Of a stretch of 51,772 nucleotides of DNA, positions 1,368 through 10,078 are shown in pieces. The translations under genes and the position numbers were made by a program. Source of the stretch: Bhargavaea sp. CC-171006 (GTDB lineage: Bacteria; Bacillota; Bacilli; Bacillales_A; Planococcaceae). The stretch lies in contig NZ_QUZH01000025.1 in NCBI RefSeq assembly GCF_009761675.1, positions 1-51,772 of the forward strand, in the 5' to 3' direction. The notes beneath the pieces were generated by a model. That model was not told where the DNA came from. It saw only the letters and a list, made by a program, of their open reading frames with translations, and made no database searches. The stretch's first letter is position 1. Each line of letters opens with the position of its first letter.

Positions 1368-1805
1368 TTAACCTCTCCATCCAATACTCCTTAAAGTATT
1401 TTCAATTATAGTTGCCTCACGAGACATTCCTATTCTACGGAGTTCGATTGCAAATAGTGGCCATGGTGGATGAATGGCCATATAAGAATTGGAATCAGGG
1501 CCAGTATACATTCCACCGCCTGGTCCCGTGTATAACCCTCCGCCTGGCCCTGTATATAGCCCTCCACCGGGCCCCGAATATAGTCCACCACCAGGGCCGG
1601 TGTACGCTCCTCCGCCTGGACCAGTATACATTCCACCGCCTGGCCCGGTATATGCTCCTCCGCCTGGGCCAGTATACATACCTCCTCCTGGTCCGGTATA
1701 TGCTCCTCCTCCCGGGCCAGTGTACATTCCACCACCTGGTCCGGTATATGCCCCTCCTCTTGGTCCGGTATACATATTTCTAACCCAAAGCCTTGCCTCA
1801 GACAT
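1368..1805 (-). CDS. Octapeptide-repeat protein with YTGPGGG units, function unknown
   Basis: A 145-aa protein I cannot assign. After a short MSEARLWVRN leader come twelve tandem octapeptides of the form [M/A/L]-Y-[T/S]-G-P-G-G-G. The middle copies alternate Ala- and Met-headed units, and three Leu-headed units follow. The non-repetitive C-terminus of about 40 residues has an HPPWPLF segment and a predicted helix. Glycine, proline and tyrosine dominate, so the repeat is probably flexible or collagen/elastin-like. No signal peptide is evident. I start it at the ATG at 1805 because AAGGAG lies 9 nt upstream; an in-frame longer start at 1826 has no such site. A possible promoter (TTGACT, 17 nt, TAGCAT) lies at 1853-1881. 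The opposite strand is also open with PPPGPVY repeats, a by-product of the repeat. Confidence 0.75.
   Translation of the reverse strand: MSEARLWVRNMYTGPRGGAYTGPGGGMYTGPGGGAYTGPGGGMYTGPGGGAYTGPGGGMYTGPGGGAYTGPGGGLYSGPGGGLYTGPGGGLYTGPGGGMYTGPDSNSYMAIHPPWPLFAIELRRIGMSREATIIENTLRSIGWRG
1450..1780. repeat. 24-bp minisatellite with partial 48-bp higher-order period
   Basis: Direct 24-bp repeats encode the octapeptides of the preceding gene. Units headed by Ala and Met codons alternate, giving a 48-bp superunit over about four dimers, and then the pattern changes to Leu-headed units. Third-position differences between copies show that the array is not freshly expanded, while reading frame and protein period are kept. 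Confidence 0.8.
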
Positions 1806-1923
1806 ATAACATTTCTCCTTCCACATTGAAGCGGAACATACGCTCCTAAATAATGCTAATTCTAATAGATAGAAAAGTCAATGTATTGATAATTATAAGT
1901 AAGCATTCTCTACCTATATAAAT

Positions 1924-1969: not shown

Positions 1970-3280
1970 CTATCCCGCCATCTGCTGCGGCAGATACAAG
2001 GCAATCTCAGGGAAGATATAGATTAGGATAATCAGCGTTAGAATCGGGATCATGAACAGGAAAGCACCTTTGAAGATGTCGGTGAGTTCCAGTTCTTTCG
2101 TGACGCCTTTTAGGACGAAGACGTTCATGCCGATTGGTGGTGAAATGAGTGCCATCTCGACAACCAATACGATGATGACGCCGAACCAGACCAAATCAAA
2201 TTCCAGCGCAGCGAGTACGGGCATGAGGATCGGGATGGTGACGACCATCATGGCGAGGGAGTCCATGAGTGCGCCCAGGATGATAAAGAGCAGGACGATC
2301 AGGGCAAAGATCATCGCTTCTGACAGGTTCGCGGACAGCAGTGCATCGGCGAGCATGTTCGGGAACCTCGTCAGTACCAATACGTAGTTCAGGATAAAGG
2401 CGCCGATGATGATGGCGAAGATGAAGCCGGTGGTCTGCAGGGTGCTGACCATGGCTTCTTTGAGTTTCGCCAATGTCAGTGTGCGCTTAATTACACCAAT
2501 AAGCATGGCGCCGAGTGCGCCGACACCGGCGGCTTCCGTCGCTGTGAACCACCCGAGATAGATGCCTCCCATGACTACTACGAACAGCAAGGCAACCAAC
2601 AGGTTACTTGGCAGCGAGGCGAATCGCTGTTTCCACGTGGATTTCTCCATCTGCTCCGTCTGGGCGAGTTTCGGATTGATCAGCACAGCCGCCCAGATGG
2701 TGATCATAAAGAACAGCGTGAGCAGGATTCCCGGTATGATGCCGGCGGTGAAGAGCGCTCCTACGGATTGTTCGGTGATCATCGCGTAGACGATGAATGT
2801 CGTGCTTGGCGGGATCAGGATTCCAAGGGCGCCGCCCGCGACGATCGTACCGCCCGTCAGGCTTTTGCTGTAGCCGCCTCTGCGCATTTCGTCGGTCGCG
2901 ATGACACCCATCGTTCCGGTCGTGGCAACGCTGGATCCGGCGGCTGTGGCGAACAGCGCGGAGGCACCGATCGTGGAGATGCCGAGACCGCCTTTCAGGT
3001 GGCCGAACCAGTGCTTGCATGTTTCAAACAGGCTGTTCGTGACGCCGGAGGCAAACAGCAGTTGCCCCATTAAAACGAACAGCGGGATTGTGCTGAGTGT
3101 ATAGCTGAAGCTCTGGCTCCAGACGATGCTGTTGACGGCGGCCAGTAGTGTATCGATTCCCCGGAGATAAATGATGCCAAGCGCGGCCGGGACGACCATG
3201 GAGATGGCGATCGGGATCCGGAGGAACATGAGGAAGAGGACCGCTAGGATGACGATGAGTCCAACGATTTCAGTCGGCAA
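1970..3280 (-). CDS. TRAP transporter large permease subunit (DctM family)
   Basis: The 436-aa hydrophobic protein has about 11-12 membrane segments and is the ion-coupled transport subunit of a tripartite ATP-independent periplasmic (TRAP) transporter. Length and the glycine-rich loops, for example AGGALGILIPPSTTFIVY around 145-165, fit the DctM family. Translation appears to start at TTG (3280) with GGGGAG 7 nt upstream. The start overlaps the end of the small permease gene by 11 bp, so the two are probably translationally coupled. It is the last gene of the operon and is followed by a terminator. Confidence 0.95.
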   Translation of the reverse strand: MPTEIVGLIVILAVLFLMFLRIPIAISMVVPAALGIIYLRGIDTLLAAVNSIVWSQSFSYTLSTIPLFVLMGQLLFASGVTNSLFETCKHWFGHLKGGLGISTIGASALFATAAGSSVATTGTMGVIATDEMRRGGYSKSLTGGTIVAGGALGILIPPSTTFIVYAMITEQSVGALFTAGIIPGILLTLFFMITIWAAVLINPKLAQTEQMEKSTWKQRFASLPSNLLVALLFVVVMGGIYLGWFTATEAAGVGALGAMLIGVIKRTLTLAKLKEAMVSTLQTTGFIFAIIIGAFILNYVLVLTRFPNMLADALLSANLSEAMIFALIVLLFIILGALMDSLAMMVVTIPILMPVLAALEFDLVWFGVIIVLVVEMALISPPIGMNVFVLKGVTKELELTDIFKGAFLFMIPILTLIILIYIFPEIALYLPQQMAG

Positions 3281-3746
3281 CGGTCTTCTCCCCTTTCAGG
3301 TCCTGCACCAGCTTGAGCAGCGCCTCGAGCCCCCAGGAGAGGAAGCCGAAGACGATGAACAGTTTGAACGGGACGTACGAGATGCCGAGCAGGTCGGAAT
3401 CTTGGGTTTTCAGGTGGGACAAAAACGCCCAGCAGACGAGCAGGCAGAACGCCAGCGTGAGCAGATGGGCGATAAAGTCCATCACGCGCTGCATCGAGGG
3501 CGAAAACTTGTCCACGAAAAGCCCGATCGAGATATGGGTGTTGGTGGCTTCGCTTAGGGACAGCGAGCCCATGATCAGGACGACCATCACGAACTGGACA
3601 AGTTCGATATCGCCGATGATCGGATTGCCCGTCGTCCGTGCGACGGCGAAGACGAACACGGCCGGGAACATCAAGCCGAGTGCGATCAGGCCGATCCATT
3701 TGTTGATGTTCGTCAGAAGACGGACCGGTTTCTGCAGGAGCTCCAT
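3270..3746 (-). CDS. TRAP transporter small permease subunit (DctQ family)
   Basis: The 158-aa membrane protein has four predicted transmembrane segments, as expected for the small DctQ subunit that partners DctM in the membrane. It lies between the solute-binding protein and the large permease genes, the usual order for this transporter. The ATG follows a GGGGG ribosome-binding site. Membrane-edge charged residues are moderately frequent, and the C-terminal tail (DLKGEKTVAD) is cytoplasmic-like. Identification rests on size, hydropathy and position more than on strong motifs. Confidence 0.9.
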   Translation of the reverse strand: MELLQKPVRLLTNINKWIGLIALGLMFPAVFVFAVARTTGNPIIGDIELVQFVMVVLIMGSLSLSEATNTHISIGLFVDKFSPSMQRVMDFIAHLLTLAFCLLVCWAFLSHLKTQDSDLLGISYVPFKLFIVFGFLSWGLEALLKLVQDLKGEKTVAD

Positions 3747-3781: not shown

Positions 3782-4840
3782 TTAATCCACCGGGTTATCG
3801 ATGCCTTGCTCTTCTAGTGTCTTGGTGAAGAAGTCCATCATTTCCTGGGCGTTTTCATAACCCCGCTTCTCGGCATGCTTCACCCAGTCTTCCCAGATCT
3901 GTTTGGCAGGAGCGCGGAATTCCGCAAGTGTTTCGCCTTCCGGCACAATGACACGTCCGCCCTTGTCGGCCACTTCTTTTTCAAACTGGACCAGGGCGTC
4001 AGCGGTGCCTTGCGAGTACATTTTCGAGTTCAGTTCGCTGAGCTTCGGTCCGAAGTCTTCCTCGAACTGCTTTTTGAGGTCGGCCGGCAGCTTATCGAAT
4101 GCGCGCTCGTTCATGAGGAACAGGAGCGTCGTCGCGCCGATATCGACTTTCGTCAGATAAGGCGCGGCTTCGAACAGGCGGAAGCCGTTCGCGCCGATCG
4201 CGGTGTATGCCGTCTGGTCGACGGTGCCGCGGTCGAGCGCCTGATAGTTCTCCTCGAGGCCGAGGGTGACGGGCACCCCGCCCCACATGCTAATAAGCTC
4301 GACGCGCTCTTTACCGGAGACGATGACTTTCTTGTTTTTCACATCATCCACTGTCTCGACCGGCTCCGTCGTAATCAGCTGGTAGGCATCCGTCGCGGAG
4401 ATGGCGAGCGGGATGCTGTCTTCAAACTCGTCCTGCATGAATTCATCGATAAATGGTTGAAGGACTTTTGGACTGTCCATCGGGTCGAGGATGGCAAACG
4501 GCAGGTCGCCGAGCGTCAGCGGGTAAGCCGGCGTGCTGGTGGAGGCACTTGGGCTCACGTAGCCGATGTCGTACAGCCCGCCTTCGATGTCTTCGTAGGC
4601 GCTGGCGAGGTTGCCGAGCGCGCCGCTGTTGTAGATTTCGATCTTCACACGGCCATCGGTCTGTTCTTCCACGTACTCCGCCCACGGGGCAACGACGTCG
4701 GTATGGAACTTGTGCGTCGCCGCGGGCTGGATATTAAATGAATACACATATTCCGCCTTGCCGCTCCCGCTTGCCGAAGCGCATCCGGAGAGGACGGCTA
4801 GCACGGCTAGCAGCATAATACCGAGGAGGCTCTTTTTCAT
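3782..4840 (-). CDS. TRAP solute-binding lipoprotein (DctP family)
   Basis: A 352-aa extracytoplasmic binding protein. The signal peptide ends in a lipobox (LSGC, Cys20), so the mature protein should be lipid-anchored outside the membrane. The body matches the DctP fold. At the position where family members usually carry a carboxylate-binding Arg in a K-[IV]-R-V context, this protein reads KKVIV (about 170-174), so that arginine seems to be replaced by Ile. The alignment was made by eye and is tentative. The gene starts 13 bp after the enoyl-CoA hydratase stop. Together with the CoA ligase and hydratase it suggests uptake of an organic acid or related compound that is then activated with CoA. 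Confidence 0.93.
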   Translation of the reverse strand: MKKSLLGIMLLAVLAVLSGCASASGSGKAEYVYSFNIQPAATHKFHTDVVAPWAEYVEEQTDGRVKIEIYNSGALGNLASAYEDIEGGLYDIGYVSPSASTSTPAYPLTLGDLPFAILDPMDSPKVLQPFIDEFMQDEFEDSIPLAISATDAYQLITTEPVETVDDVKNKKVIVSGKERVELISMWGGVPVTLGLEENYQALDRGTVDQTAYTAIGANGFRLFEAAPYLTKVDIGATTLLFLMNERAFDKLPADLKKQFEEDFGPKLSELNSKMYSQGTADALVQFEKEVADKGGRVIVPEGETLAEFRAPAKQIWEDWVKHAEKRGYENAQEMMDFFTKTLEEQGIDNPVD

Positions 4841-4853
4841 CGTTCGTTCCCCC

Positions 4854-5633
4854 TTATTTCTTCGCCTTTTCGAATCCGGCCATCTGGTCGGCGGTGCCGC
4901 CGGCCGTCATGACGGCTTCCTGGAGTTCTGCGTCGTAGTACAGGAGCGGGTCGATCGCCGGAACAGCGGCATTGACGATTTTCTTCGAGATGCGGAGCGG
5001 AGCGAACGACTTCGCCGTGAGCTTGCCGACGAGTTCATCGGTCGCTGCTTCCAGCTCTGCGAGTGGGACGACCTTGTTCACAAGGCCCATCTTCTCCGCT
5101 TCTTCAGCGGTAAACGTTTCACCCAGCATAATGAGTTCCTTCGCTTTCAGCGGGCCAACGAGGTTGACCAGTCGCGGCGTGCCGCCTCCGGAGAAGAACA
5201 GTCCGCGCTCGATTTCCGGCAGGCCGCCGTCCGCTTCCTCCGCAATGATGCGGAAGTCGCACACCATCGCGAGTGCCATGCCGGCGCCGCGCATCGGGCC
5301 GTTGATCGCCGCGACCGTGATCTGGTCGAGCGTGTCGAACTTGCGCAGGAACTCATGCCGCTGAAGCTGGTCTTCGCGGATCCAGGTCGTGTCGTTCGGA
5401 TTGTCTTTCAGGATCCCGCTCATTTCTTTCATGTCTGCACCTGCCGAGAACACCCGGCCGTTCCCCGTGAAGACGATGACCCGGTAGTCGTGATTTTGCC
5501 GCACGCGCGTGAGGATATCGTTGAGTTCTTGGTTCATCTGCGCGTTCATGGCGTTGGCTTTTTCGGGCCGGTTGAGGTTCACCCGCAGAACGGGCTTTTC
5601 GTCTATGACTTGGATGGTTTCGTAGTTGAACAT
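4854..5633 (-). CDS. Enoyl-CoA hydratase/isomerase family protein
   Basis: A 259-aa crotonase-fold enzyme. Visible signatures are the LNRPEKANAMN segment near the N-terminus, the oxyanion-hole region GRVFSAGADMKEM (about 60-72) and the second oxyanion segment GPMRGAGMALA (about 111-121). The Glu pair of classical hydratases is not clearly present at the second site, so hydratase, isomerase or another crotonase reaction are all possible. I start it at the ATG at 5633, behind GGGGGAG. It lies in the operon between the acyl-CoA ligase and the TRAP genes and probably acts on the CoA thioester that the ligase makes. Confidence 0.92.
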   Translation of the reverse strand: MFNYETIQVIDEKPVLRVNLNRPEKANAMNAQMNQELNDILTRVRQNHDYRVIVFTGNGRVFSAGADMKEMSGILKDNPNDTTWIREDQLQRHEFLRKFDTLDQITVAAINGPMRGAGMALAMVCDFRIIAEEADGGLPEIERGLFFSGGGTPRLVNLVGPLKAKELIMLGETFTAEEAEKMGLVNKVVPLAELEAATDELVGKLTAKSFAPLRISKKIVNAAVPAIDPLLYYDAELQEAVMTAGGTADQMAGFEKAKK

Positions 5634-5669
5634 TTGGTCTCCCCCTTTTCTTTGCATGTATGGAGCGTG

Positions 5670-5807: not shown

Positions 5808-7364
5808 TCAGATCTGTCTTTCTTTCACTTTCCAGAACGGTTCACGCAATGCTTTCTTATCCACTTTGCCGTAGTTGGTGAGCGGGAATTCGTCGACGAT
5901 ATGGAACGCTTTCGGCACTTTGTATTTGGACATGTTGTCTTTCGAGAAGCGGACGAGTTCTTCGTCGGTGATGGTGTCCTTCAGGATGACGAACGCATGG
6001 ACCGCTTCGCCCCAGTCTTCGTCCGGCACTCCTATGACCGCGACCTGGCGGATGGCCGGGTGCAGTTGGAGGGCGTTTTCGACTTCCGACGAGTATACGT
6101 TCATGCCGCCGCTGATGATCATATCCTTTTTGCGGTCAAGCAGATAAATGTAGCCGTCCTCGTCTTTCGAGCCGACGTCGCCCGTATGGAGCCAGCCGTC
6201 TTCCGTCAGCGCCTCGCGCGTCTTATCCGGTTTGTTCAGGTAGCCGGTCATGTTCGTAACTGCCTTGACCAGGATTTCGCCAGGCTCGCCCGCCGGCAGT
6301 TCGTTCCCCTCGTCGTCGACGATCTTCACAGCGCTGAAGTACGCGGGCTTGCCGCAGCTGCGGAGCAGTTTGCCGCCCTTCAGGTGATCATCTTTTCTCA
6401 GCCATGTCGCAGCGCTCTGCGTTTCGCTCAACCCGTAGATCTGGGTAAAGACCGGACCGAACCGCTCCAGTCCTTGCTTGAGCCGCTCCGCGGTAATCGG
6501 AGCGGTGCCGTACTGGATCGTGCGGATCGAGCTGACATCGATGTCCTTGCCCTCCAGGTGATCCAGCAGTCGGTAGATGATTGTCGGTACCAGGCTCAGG
6601 AACGTGATCCGGTTTTCTTCGATGTGGCGCACGACCGTCTCCAGGTCGAACTTTTCTTCGATGAAGACCTGCGCCCCCATGATCAGCCCGGAATACGTAT
6701 AGAGCCAGGCCGCATGCGGGAGCGGTGTTGTGACCAGGATTTTCTCGTCATGATGCACGTCCGCATCGATGATGATCGACGACAGCGTAAGCAGAGTCCG
6801 TTCGCGTGTGTAGATGACGCCCTTGGGCTCCCCTGTCGTCCCGCCCGTGTACTGGATGGTTGTCATGTCATCCGGATCGTTGCCCACTTCCGGAAAAGCA
6901 GAAGACTCGCTGTCCTTGAATGCGTGCCAGTCCACATATTCTTCCGGCTGATCCGCCGGGCCGTTCAGGACGACGATTTGGCGCACGGTCGTGAGCTTGT
7001 CCTTCACATTTTCGATGATCGGCAGGTACTGGTGGTCCACGACCATGATTTCCGCACTCGAGTCATTCAGGATGTACTCGATATCTGTTTCCCGGAGCAT
7101 CGTGTTGAGTGCAACCTTCGTTCCACCCGAAAAATAGATGGCAAGTTCGGTAACTACGTATTCAATGCTGTTCGGAATGAGCATCCCGATCCGTGTGTTC
7201 CGGCCGACCTCCGCACGGATAAACGCATTCGCCAGTCGGCTGGATTCCGCAAGCAGATCCTCGTAATTAATCGACTCACCCGCCGCATGGAGTGCTGTTC
7301 TCTTTCCGTGAGTGGTAAACCGGTTTTTCAGGAATGTATTAAAGTCATTTGCAGGAGCAAACAT
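5808..7364 (-). CDS. AMP-forming acyl-CoA ligase (fatty-acyl/aryl-CoA synthetase family)
   Basis: The 518-aa ANL-superfamily adenylating enzyme makes an acyl-AMP and then an acyl-CoA. Motifs in order: the phosphate-binding YTGGTTGEPKG (172-182), the adenine-binding YGLSET (310-315), GWLHTGDVG (390-398), the hinge DRKKDMIISGGMNVY (410-424) and the C-terminal catalytic lysine in YGKVDKKAL (K500). There is no signal peptide, so it is cytoplasmic. The ATG has GGGAGGAAG upstream. It is the first gene of the TRAP operon and is divergent from lysR. Substrate chain length or aromatic nature cannot be told from the sequence alone. Confidence 0.95.
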   Translation of the reverse strand: MFAPANDFNTFLKNRFTTHGKRTALHAAGESINYEDLLAESSRLANAFIRAEVGRNTRIGMLIPNSIEYVVTELAIYFSGGTKVALNTMLRETDIEYILNDSSAEIMVVDHQYLPIIENVKDKLTTVRQIVVLNGPADQPEEYVDWHAFKDSESSAFPEVGNDPDDMTTIQYTGGTTGEPKGVIYTRERTLLTLSSIIIDADVHHDEKILVTTPLPHAAWLYTYSGLIMGAQVFIEEKFDLETVVRHIEENRITFLSLVPTIIYRLLDHLEGKDIDVSSIRTIQYGTAPITAERLKQGLERFGPVFTQIYGLSETQSAATWLRKDDHLKGGKLLRSCGKPAYFSAVKIVDDEGNELPAGEPGEILVKAVTNMTGYLNKPDKTREALTEDGWLHTGDVGSKDEDGYIYLLDRKKDMIISGGMNVYSSEVENALQLHPAIRQVAVIGVPDEDWGEAVHAFVILKDTITDEELVRFSKDNMSKYKVPKAFHIVDEFPLTNYGKVDKKALREPFWKVKERQI

Positions 7365-7511
7365 TGTTCTTCCTCCCTATATAAATATTCCGACATTAAA
7401 TCTTTTGAATTACACTACCATTAAGACTTCTGTCGGGCTAATATGTATTGAAGATGAAATGATATGTAACAGCTATCAATCAACCATTAACTTCCACCGG
7501 AGGAACCCGCT

Positions 7512-8405
7512 ATGGAACTGAGACATCTGAGATACTTTATCGCCGTCGCAGAACACCTGCATTTTGGCCGCGCCGCCAAGGAGCTGAACATGAGCCAGCC
7601 GCCCCTCTCCCAGCAGATCGCCCAGCTCGAAGAGGAAATCGGGGCCCAGCTTTTCTACCGGACCAATCGCTCCGTCCGGCTAACTCCTGCAGGCGAACAT
7701 CTCTTCCGCGAGGCCAAGGCCATCATGGGCAGCCTCGAGCGGGCGACCACTGAGGCACGGAAGATCCATAAAGGTGAAGCTGGCAAGCTCTCCGTCGGCT
7801 ACACGGGGATGCTGAGCAGCGGCATCATTCGTATCCTCCGCTCGTTCAAGGACCGGTACCCGGACGTCGAGCTCATCCTCCACCGGATGTCGAGCGCGAT
7901 GCAGAATGAAGCACTGGCCGAACGCCGGATCGACATCGGGTTCCTTTGCCCGCCGATCAACGGGGACGCACTCGGATTCTTCCACCTGTACGACTATCCG
8001 TTCGTCGTTGCCCTGCCGTCCTCTCATCCGCTGGCCGCCGACACCTTTCCGATCCGGCTGTCCGATCTCCAAGGCGAACCGTTTATCCTGCCGCCGCGGG
8101 GGGAAGAAGCCGGCTACTTTGACAACATCATCGCCCTCTGCAACCGCGTCGGGCTCAGCCCCGACATCCGCCAGGAAGCGGAAGGCGTCACGACCATCCT
8201 ATCCCTCGTTGCCGCAGGCATCGGTATCTCCATCGTGTCGACAGCAGCTGCTGAGACCCAGCGGGATGAGATCGTCTACCGGGAGATTAAGGGCGCAGAT
8301 GACGCCATCGGCCTGTATCTGGCATGGAACCGGCAGGATGCCTCTCCCCTTGCGGAGCGGTTCGCCCGGGCAGCGGAAGCATTTGTCCAAAACCCGGACA
8401 AATAA
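7512..8405 (+). CDS. LysR-type transcriptional regulator
   Basis: The 297-aa regulator has an N-terminal winged HTH (residues 1-60, with FGRAAKELNMSQPPLSQQI as the recognition region) and a C-terminal LysR substrate-binding domain. The start has GGAGG 8 nt upstream. It is transcribed divergently from the acyl-CoA ligase/TRAP operon across a 147-bp region, the standard arrangement for a LysR activator of that operon. A 6-bp inverted pair CCGACA/TGTCGG (7390 and 7431) lies in that region and might be part of its binding site (inference). Its 3' end overlaps the terminator arm of an antisense SAM riboswitch, described separately. Confidence 0.95.
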   Translation: MELRHLRYFIAVAEHLHFGRAAKELNMSQPPLSQQIAQLEEEIGAQLFYRTNRSVRLTPAGEHLFREAKAIMGSLERATTEARKIHKGEAGKLSVGYTGMLSSGIIRILRSFKDRYPDVELILHRMSSAMQNEALAERRIDIGFLCPPINGDALGFFHLYDYPFVVALPSSHPLAADTFPIRLSDLQGEPFILPPRGEEAGYFDNIIALCNRVGLSPDIRQEAEGVTTILSLVAAGIGISIVSTAAAETQRDEIVYREIKGADDAIGLYLAWNRQDASPLAERFARAAEAFVQNPDK

Positions 8406-8433
8406 AAAACGCACTCCATGTAGAAGAGTGCGT
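8404..8433 (-). terminator. SAM-riboswitch terminator (expression platform)
   Basis: On the minus strand the 8-bp stem ACGCACTC/GAGTGCGT (8433-8426 with 8416-8409) is followed by a run of six Ts. The 5' side overlaps the 8-nt element ACTCTTCT (plus-strand 8422-8429), which is perfectly complementary to AGAAGAGT at the end of the aptamer (plus-strand 8450-8457). This gives a classic mutually exclusive terminator/antiterminator pair. Confidence 0.9.
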
Positions 8434-8452
8434 GGCGATTTATCGGCGGACT

Positions 8453-8562
8453 CTTCTCATCTGCTGGGATCACTCCCACAGGAATTAGCACCGATACAAG
8501 CATTCGCCTGCCGGTTGCCGGGCATCGTCGGGCCAGTCCCTCCGCCGCTCTGGATAAGAAGT
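8453..8562 (-). promoter_or_regulatory. SAM-I (S-box) riboswitch aptamer
   Basis: Read on the minus strand, this segment carries the conserved S-box landmarks in order: the P1 strand TTCTTATCCAGAG, GAGGGACTGGCCC (plus 8530-8542), CCCGGCAACCGG (GGCAACC at plus 8513-8519), GGTGCTAATTCC (plus 8481-8492) and the closing P1 strand GATGAGAAG (plus 8453-8461). P1 pairs over about 8 bp. A terminator with a matching antiterminator follows. Such riboswitches normally repress methionine/cysteine genes when S-adenosylmethionine is abundant. Here the next sequence downstream is the antisense of lysR, so it lacks its usual target. Candidate promoter boxes lie upstream at 8562-8591 on the minus strand. Confidence 0.95.
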
Positions 8563-8591
8563 ATAAAAGTTTTAAGTTGTTAGTTAGTCAA
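8562..8591 (-). promoter_or_regulatory. Candidate promoter of the SAM riboswitch
   Basis: TTGACT (8591-8586) is followed after 18 nt by TTTATA (8567-8562), or after 20 nt by TATACT (8565-8560). Spacing is not ideal in either reading, but the position directly before the P1 stem of the aptamer is right for a transcript that starts with the riboswitch. Confidence 0.45.
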
Positions 8592-9163
8592 ACTATTTTG
8601 TAGTTTAGCACGTTAAAGTAGATGGGTCAACGGAAGTCGGCATTAGTTAAACTTCTTTAGACATCAGTCCTATTTAACAATTCTCGCAAGCTCTGCTAAT
8701 ACCCGATCCCCTTCGTTGTCCTACATACAGCCACCGGCTCCTTCAGCCCAACCCATTCCATAGTGGGGCAGCATGTACTCGATTCCATTTTATGATATCC
8801 AGAAGTTGAACATCCCTTCCGTCAGGGACGTCTACGGCAAAAACGGCCACAGGATCGTATTTACAAGCCCTACCGGAATCCACTGCTCTTCTGCACCTGA
8901 AGGAAACCGAACAAAAGAGCGGAAACGTAAAAATGATCACCTTACAGAGTAACGAAGACAAAACACTTCCGGTATTCCGGAGGATGGATCGTCTTTTTAA
9001 TGTTTGATCACGTTCTTAATAGCTTCTCCAGAAGTACTGAAGGTACCCCCTAACCTAGGATTGTTCATCACTCGTTTTCGGAAAGCATTCATAAGGCGGG
9101 GAGTTAGGTATCGATATACTAGGTTCCCGTTTCTTCCCCCGCACGCACTAATCATCCCGATCA
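8592..9163. other. Intergenic stretch without a supported gene
   Basis: Between the riboswitch and the CDF transporter I see no gene I can support. A 59-codon plus-strand ORF (8773-8952, beginning MYSIPFYDIQKLNIPS) has no convincing ribosome-binding site and no family I recognise; it may be a gene remnant. A 60-aa minus-strand ORF (8997-9179) overlaps the end of the CDF gene and is doubtful. The part from about 9028 to 9180 can be cut into 20-25-bp pieces that weakly resemble the degenerate arrays at 18.2 and 48.9 kb. Confidence 0.4.
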
Positions 9164-10078
9164 CTAACCTTCCCCACATCCACCATCTAAGTTTACTCTC
9201 CTTCTCTCCCCTCCTGGCTCAATATGGATGAATACTTTTGTATACGGCTTTGCTTTTCGCATCTTGCTGTCAATCTCTTCGGTGATTTTATGGCTTTCAA
9301 CGACATTAAGGTGGGGATCCACCGTTATGGTCATGTCCAATAATGTCATGTTGCCGTGCATCCGGCCCTTGAGATCGCGGATTTGATCGACACCTTGTAC
9401 GGATTCCGTCAGTCGTTTGAGCATTTCTCCTTCCTCTTCATCAAATCCGTCGGTCAGCGCATAGACGGCTTCTTTAAAGATTGTGCCGGCTGCAAGTATG
9501 ACAATGATTGCGATGATGAGCGCCGTGATAGTGTCAATAATCGGAAATCCAAATATGGCACCGCCAATCCCAGCCGCTGCTCCGAAGCTGACCAGTGCGT
9601 CTGCCCGGTTGTCCTGTGCTGCTGCGTGGAGAGCCGAGCTTCCTATTTCCTTTGAGAGTCGAACATTGTATAAGTAAACCGTGTACATCACCATACCGCT
9701 GGCGAGTGCGACAATCCCAGTTAATGGAGAGGGATGACCTGCGCTACCAGCATAAATTGAGATGACCGCTCCGATCAGAATCTGAAGGCCGACCACCGCC
9801 ATAATAAATGAAGCGATGAGCGAGGCGATGGTTTCGGCACGGAGATGGCCGTATCGGTGATTTCGGTCGGGTGGTTTTTGGGATATCCTCAAACCAATCA
9901 GGACGGCAATCGAGGCAATGACATCCGTCGTATTGTTCAGTGCATCTGCCTTTAGTGCTTCTGATGCCCCCGCTATTCCAGTGAGGAATTTGACTGCGCT
10001 GAGCACTAGATAGATGGTTATGCTAAGCCATGCACCACGTTCTCCCTTTTTCAGATTTGAATAGATTTCAGTAGCCAT
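9164..10078 (-). CDS. Cation diffusion facilitator, probable Mn2+ exporter (MneP/MneS-like)
   Basis: The 304-aa CDF-family protein exports divalent cations in exchange for protons. It has six predicted membrane segments and a C-terminal cytoplasmic domain of about 80 residues. The transport site appears as NNTTD in TM2 (N48 and D52) and DNRAD (a DxxxD motif) in TM5. This Asp/Asn-rich site is typical of manganese CDFs, in contrast to the HxxxD site of zinc CDFs. The HRYGHLRAE segment after TM2 is also family-typical. The sequence resembles Bacillus manganese exporters as I remember them. The ATG follows GAGAGGCG, and it lies 37 bp downstream of the next permease gene, so co-transcription is possible. 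Confidence 0.9.
   Translation of the reverse strand: MATEIYSNLKKGERGAWLSITIYLVLSAVKFLTGIAGASEALKADALNNTTDVIASIAVLIGLRISQKPPDRNHRYGHLRAETIASLIASFIMAVVGLQILIGAVISIYAGSAGHPSPLTGIVALASGMVMYTVYLYNVRLSKEIGSSALHAAAQDNRADALVSFGAAAGIGGAIFGFPIIDTITALIIAIIVILAAGTIFKEAVYALTDGFDEEEGEMLKRLTESVQGVDQIRDLKGRMHGNMTLLDMTITVDPHLNVVESHKITEEIDSKMRKAKPYTKVFIHIEPGGERRRVNLDGGCGEG

Follow-up and report, generated by a model that had tools for sequence, protein, structure and literature searches.

Riboswitches that act by antisense transcription form a small class, of which only two had been described before 2023 according to the survey of Serrano-Gutierrez and Merino, who computed 56 antisense SAM riboswitches compared to 8,039 sense SAM riboswitches and listed regulator genes as one target group of the computed antisense-acting riboswitches (PMC9943018). 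In Listeria monocytogenes, the AspocR riboswitch gives a 230-nt RNA in the presence of B12 and a 1,400-nt antisense RNA that inhibits pocR in its absence (PMC8079631). In Clostridium acetobutylicum, a SAM-I riboswitch at the 3' end of the ubiG-mccBA operon drives an antisense RNA at low SAM (PMC9943018, PMC7154746). The main text of the 2023 survey contains neither LysR nor Bhargavaea nor any word beginning with Planococc-, and among the open-licence papers listed by the literature searches, no antisense pair of a SAM riboswitch and a LysR-type gene was seen.

The window analyzed here is a stretch of 51,772 nucleotides from Bhargavaea sp. CC-171006, in which a SAM-I riboswitch (S-box) on the minus strand lies directly behind a lysR gene on the plus strand. 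This S-box appears to be an addition to the small class of antisense-acting riboswitches. The arrangement resembles that of AspocR, in which the riboswitch is also behind and convergent with a regulator gene, the metabolite causes an early stop while its absence gives a long antisense RNA, and the regulator controls a catabolic operon (PMC8079631, PMC7154746). However, AspocR responds to B12, which is a cofactor of the pathway concerned, whereas the predicted ligand here is SAM. PocR is an AraC-type regulator, and the regulator here is LysR-type. The 3'-end SAM-I riboswitch of ubiG-mccBA has the same anatomy as the lysR S-box, but there the target is an operon for sulfur metabolism that carries a T-box as well, whereas the gene facing the riboswitch in Bhargavaea encodes a regulator beside an organic-acid operon. 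SreA of Listeria is likewise a SAM-I riboswitch that does more than control the gene downstream of it (PMC8079631), but a sense operon lies behind SreA and none is near the S-box of the window. The first-pass annotation of this DNA had called the locus excludon-like, which is fair as a description, although AspocR is the closer published parallel (PMC8079631).

The lysR gene (7512-8405, plus strand) encodes a LysR-type regulator of 297 aa with Pfam HTH_1 and LysR_substrate domains. The canonical S-box that the first-pass annotation had placed on the minus strand at the 3' end of lysR was confirmed by a full-length match to Rfam RF00162 at 8454-8560 (model positions 1 to 108; 81.1 bits; E value, 1.3e-17; gathering score, 44.4), which was the sole Rfam match at the gathering score inside the window and was also supported by the orthologues and their alignment. 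The aptamer is separated from the lysR stop codon by 48 nt, and the terminator lies within this interval. From the sequence, the terminator scan, and the alignment, the intrinsic terminator consists of a minus-strand stem-loop (8433-8409), the 5' strand of which carries ACTCTTCT, and a T-tract of six residues (8409-8404) that shares 2 nt with the 3' end of the lysR stop codon (TAA, 8403-8405). Read on the plus strand, the hairpin is without a T-tract. The antiterminator, as the annotation had also proposed, pairs AGAAGAGT (8457-8450, minus strand), which overlaps the 3' strand of P1, with ACTCTTCT in the 5' strand of the terminator (8429-8422, minus strand). Both 8-mers are intact in the window and in all three intact orthologues. 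The antiterminator pair is invariant among these copies, and neither it nor the terminator varies in a way that would reveal covariation. Thus, the element has both the full-length RF00162 match above the gathering score and the terminator/antiterminator platform (a stem with T6 and an 8-nt pair) of the SAM-I class.

No methionine, cysteine, or SAM gene follows this S-box. As had been noted at first pass, the next minus-strand coding sequence past the aptamer is that of the acyl-CoA ligase, and its ATG is ∼1.09 kb on, across all of lysR. Comparison of four orthologues revealed no conserved antisense open reading frame between the aptamer and the ligase, and there is thus no nearer sense target gene. 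A hidden small protein past the terminator was rejected, because the antisense frames are broken at differing places in the four orthologues; a frame that is open for 301 codons in one relative (G007) has stops in the other three.

The genome contains 14 S-boxes, and the S-box of the window is the only one without a nearby sense gene. The remaining 13 precede 12 sense genes, with start codons (which were the analyst's choice) 61 to 186 nt from the aptamer for 12 of the 13; the thirteenth (L003) is the upstream member of two tandem S-boxes that precede one of the 12 genes, which is SsuA-like. The genes under sense S-boxes code for a methionine-biosynthesis PLP enzyme, an SsuA-family lipoprotein, an acyl-CoA-dehydrogenase-fold protein, an NtaA/DmoA monooxygenase, a luciferase-like monooxygenase, an O-acetylhomoserine sulfhydrylase-family enzyme, an FMN reductase, a CMD (carboxymuconolactone-decarboxylase-like) protein, MetK, and two ATPases that are closest to MetN, both below the cut-off of that model. 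The twelfth gene (L013) had no NCBIfam match at 1e-60 and is transporter-like by its letters. The tandem pair (L002/L003; G000:C20:9656-9946) comprises two complete S-boxes, each with its own terminator, before the SsuA-like lipoprotein gene, and is also present in G003, G005, G006, and G007.

A likely promoter for the S-box (TTGACC-17-TAAACT, with TG before the -10 hexamer) was detected on the minus strand at 8630-8602, just beyond the interval in which the first-pass annotation had placed the riboswitch (8404-8591). The consensus scan found one promoter-like site, compared to a mean of 1.2 in shuffled sequences, which is not significant alone, and two terminator-like sites, compared to 2.2 expected in shuffles. 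Because neither result was above the shuffled expectation, the weight rests on conservation. All 12 bases of the promoter hexamers are kept in each of the three orthologues, and the 17-nt spacer keeps 15, 13, and 11. For two of the three relatives, DNA similarity to the window stops at 8630, where the -35 box has its outer edge, and for the third (G007) it reaches 8670. Between 8408 and 7200 the scan gave no terminator-like site on the minus strand, nor did it find a plus-strand terminator between 7200 and 9200; given the latter result, lysR mRNA may run into the complement of the S-box. The ∼530 bases between the S-box promoter and a CDF-type transporter gene (8631-9163) had no DNA match to the flanks of the relatives beyond 8630 (8670 in G007) and contain no open reading frame of 90 aa or more.

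Eight genomes of the genus were compared. The lysR of the window is kept in four of them, its own genome and G003, G005, and G007 (91 to 92% identity), and the same four hold the ligase orthologue. In all four genomes with lysR, the S-box is on the opposite strand 47 to 48 nt behind the lysR stop. The other four genomes gave only distant LysR matches (best E values, 6e-39 to 1e-22; identities of 32, 31, and 26% in three of the four, among the matches listed) and no ligase match at 1e-80. In no relative was a met gene seen behind this S-box, the genes that follow the closest S-boxes in G001, G002, and G004 being outside this comparison. Identity between the window and the three relatives was 94 to 98% for the aptamer and 90 to 92% for the platform. 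By the same measure, 12 sense S-boxes had identities of 91 to 100% for the aptamer and 74 to 100% for the platform; L004, which has no orthologue in G003, G005, or G007, was left out of this comparison, and L001, L005, and L013 entered it with only two, two, and one orthologues, respectively. The fourfold sites of lysR were identical at 98/141, 98/145, and 92/142 positions (65 to 70%). Conservation of the aptamer and platform is thus close to that of the sense S-boxes and far above that of the lysR fourfold sites. The element is conserved and very probably functional.

Two of the relatives, G005 and G003, also carry a 5'-truncated lysR remnant together with a truncated S-box (L095 9027-9472 and L046 10774-11137). 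The G005 remnant is ∼1.7 kb past the intact pair and consists of a 5'-truncated lysR end, the terminator region, and little over half of the aptamer. The G003 remnant is ∼46 kb from the intact pair, and its tblastn alignment is interrupted by a stop and by gaps. Both remnants have lost both antiterminator 8-mers, and neither was reported by cmscan at the gathering score. S-box columns matching the window numbered 88/109 and 114/139 in the remnants compared to 149/156, 147/155, and 148/155 in the intact copies, or 202/248 compared to 444/466 when pooled (n = 3 intact orthologues); the P value of 1e-8 for this difference is only descriptive, because the columns are not independent. The direction is clear in that the switch appears to have lasted only with an intact lysR, as judged from two remnants that may share ancestry. 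The G003 remnant is ∼2.2 kb from a CDF-type transporter gene, a close relative of which flanks the lysR/S-box pair in the window; the close form of this gene (82%) was found only in the genome of the window and G003 among the eight genus genomes.

The first-pass annotation had offered a relic left after a rearrangement as the alternative to function. Such a relic, and a recent one in particular, is disfavored by the conservation of the S-box beside lysR in four genomes and by the fact that the switch has decayed in both copies with a dead lysR. The same observations support the antisense placement and functional role that the annotation preferred, with the exception of its suggestion that the read-through RNA serves as a leader for the neighboring operon.

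Among the S-boxes of the genome, the one nearest to that of the window is the second member of the tandem pair that serves the SsuA-like gene, with 71% identity over aptamer and platform compared to 45 to 61% for the other 12. BLAST gave 77% over the aptamer and terminator, and the similarity spans the terminator and ends at 8400, beside the lysR stop. In two other genera, one represented by G164 and the other by G210 and G236, a lysR gene is divergent from a ligase-crotonase-DctPQM-CMD cluster, with LysR identities of 49 to 50% for G164 and G210. Genes of these clusters were identified by Pfam (LysR, ligase, crotonase, and CMD of G164; LysR of G210; CMD of G236), by search match (DctP of G164 and G210; LysR of G236), or by alignment (CMD of G210), and the remaining genes were assigned by size, order, and first letters. 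No S-box at the gathering score was found in the 19.0 to 19.5 kb around the three clusters or in the 19.5 kb around five more homologues (DctP in G104, G110, G116, and G167; LysR in G041). Of the 14 DctP matches at 1e-60, 4 are from Bhargavaea and 6 others were scanned, with G115, G145, G157, and G205 left out. A lysR relative at an E value of ≤1e-85 was present in 14 of 261 family genomes, the same 261 that the order-wide search covered; the 4 from Bhargavaea have the S-box, and none of the 10 loci from other genera has one within ∼1.5 kb. A low-threshold RNA scan of the 2.7 kb around lysR in L099 gave only matches far below the gathering scores. Because these three genomes have the cluster but no S-box, the switch is probably a later addition, and the simplest history is that an aptamer-terminator unit was copied behind a pre-existing lysR in the Bhargavaea line.

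LysR-family regulators usually act on a divergent operon. The intergenic region between lysR and the ligase (7365-7511) is conserved in the alignment and would be expected to contain both an operator for LysR and a promoter for the operon itself. The operon, on the minus strand, comprises Pfam-supported genes for an AMP-binding acyl-CoA ligase (5808-7364), a crotonase-family hydratase/lyase (4854-5657), and the TRAP transporter proteins DctP (solute-binding protein, 3782-4840), DctQ (small permease, 3270-3746), and DctM (large permease, 1970-3280); DctM was also above the cut-off of NCBIfam TIGR00786, and the assignment of DctP was supported by its PDB neighbors. Together, these genes point to the import of an organic acid, possibly a hydroxycinnamate, and its activation with CoA. 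The PDB neighbors of the ligase include FadD8 and a feruloyl-CoA synthetase entry, and the closest solved structures to DctP are 7nsw and its relatives, which we take to be lignin-aromatic binding proteins of the TarP kind. The best NCBIfam model for the crotonase is that of hydroxycinnamoyl-CoA hydratase/lyase (HCHL, PRK09120), but its score of 156.7 bits is far below the cut-off of 276 that would mark a feruloyl/p-coumaroyl-CoA enzyme. The crotonase of DMSP demethylation (DmdB/DmdD) has two catalytic glutamates. In alignment with 5zai, the window crotonase has Ala at the first of these positions (GAGMALAM) and keeps the second (GLPEIERG), and this active site does not support a DMSP/methylthiopropionate pathway as a direct link to sulfur. 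Between DctM and an Fe-dependent alcohol dehydrogenase is an open reading frame of 152 aa (1368-1826, minus strand) made mostly of YTGPGGG(M/A/L) repeats, which had no Pfam or NCBIfam relative and only a PDB match with an E value of 0.75.

The ligase/TRAP cluster ends with a two-domain CMD gene in all three of the other-genus genomes examined (G164, G210, and G236). This gene is rare (9 of 61 genomes at 1e-60). Six Bhargavaea genomes have it, and an S-box is just in front of it in five; the CMD gene of G001 has no S-box within 1.5 kb. In the other three genomes with the gene, an S-box is in front in G014 and none is in G027 or G046. The CMD protein of the window's genome, which is under a sense S-box, is 66 to 67% identical to the G164 and G210 copies. 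CMD loci are L012, L099 (12367-13035), L100 (6894-7577), L178 (8366-9040), and L155. A CMD homologue under a sense S-box would be expected to be on at low SAM, which would fit induction of the pathway at low SAM and hints at a place for it among the low-SAM genes.

The reading that we favor, with somewhat better than even confidence, is that the element works as a SAM-I riboswitch and thereby governs an RNA antisense to lysR. In the sequence of events that we infer, transcription would start at the minus-strand promoter at ∼8602-8630. At high SAM, the aptamer would bind SAM and hold P1, the terminator would form, and the RNA would end at the lysR stop after ∼190 nt. At low SAM, the antiterminator would form and polymerase would read on through lysR, and either the complementary RNA or polymerase collision would lower LysR output. 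If LysR acts on the divergent ligase/crotonase/TRAP operon, uptake and activation of the organic acid would be damped at low SAM. Several points count against this reading. The S-box/lysR pair was seen in one genus only, the antisense RNA could be terminated prematurely by Rho or another factor, and the CMD gene gives a hint against the proposed sign, that is, an operon damped at low SAM.

The CMD hint instead favors a different reading, in which the S-box is a long SAM-controlled leader. Read-through would cross lysR antisense and continue into the ligase/TRAP operon, so that low SAM switches the operon on, and the antisense RNA to lysR would be either incidental or a further means of taking the operon out of LysR control. 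The lack of a minus-strand terminator-like site in the scan from 8408 to 7200 would permit this, and the gene that closes the cluster in all three other-genus genomes has its Bhargavaea homologue under a sense S-box. However, an untranslated leader of ∼1.09 kb would be very long compared to the 61 to 186 nt behind 12 of the 13 sense S-boxes, the operon has its own conserved divergent region (7365-7511), and three genomes from two other genera have the cluster but no S-box. A leader seems unlikely, although its chance is appreciable. We give a smaller chance to one SAM-controlled RNA with two roles at low SAM, antisense silencing of LysR followed by service as the mRNA of the divergent ligase/TRAP operon, which would move the operon from inducer/LysR control to SAM control. 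The gene geometry would allow such an excludon, in which one long RNA is antisense to one gene and mRNA for its neighbor, and the scan found no terminator-like site en route.

It is improbable that the short SAM-terminated transcript is itself the product, acting on other mRNAs or on the lysR 3' untranslated region, as SreA acts on prfA (PMC8079631); the lysR mRNA may enter the S-box complement, as there is no plus-strand terminator at 7200-9200 in the scan, but an antiterminator is useless to a purely terminated RNA and is nevertheless invariant in all four intact copies. That the S-box is a nonfunctional copy, duplicated from the tandem pair and hitchhiking with lysR, would agree with the second tandem S-box being its nearest relative in the genome (71%, with the other 12 at 45 to 61%; 77% by BLAST). 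However, conservation far above that of the fourfold sites and similar to that of sense S-boxes, invariant promoter hexamers, and an antiterminator kept in four copies with intact lysR and lost in the two without it make a nonfunctional copy very improbable. There is an equally slim chance that the element is mainly a boundary at which the terminator or convergent transcription ends the lysR mRNA, with SAM sensing secondary. The terminator hairpin abuts the lysR stop, the scan found no other lysR terminator, and a Listeria lysine riboswitch is reported also to end its upstream gene (PMC8079631), but the hairpin has no T-tract on the plus strand, and a boundary does not need the conserved aptamer and antiterminator.

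An antisense riboswitch facing a regulator gene is a rare arrangement with very few tested cases. The natural controls available here, namely, intact copies with lysR, dead lysR copies with a decayed switch, and clusters without a switch in relatives, offer a clean setting for testing whether such riboswitches act via regulator genes. If a single RNA both silences LysR and serves as the operon mRNA, the organic-acid pathway would be an unrecognized part of the low-SAM (sulfur or methyl-group) response. The probable history of the locus suggests that an established regulator-operon pair can acquire a riboswitch when an aptamer-terminator unit is copied to a site behind the regulator gene.
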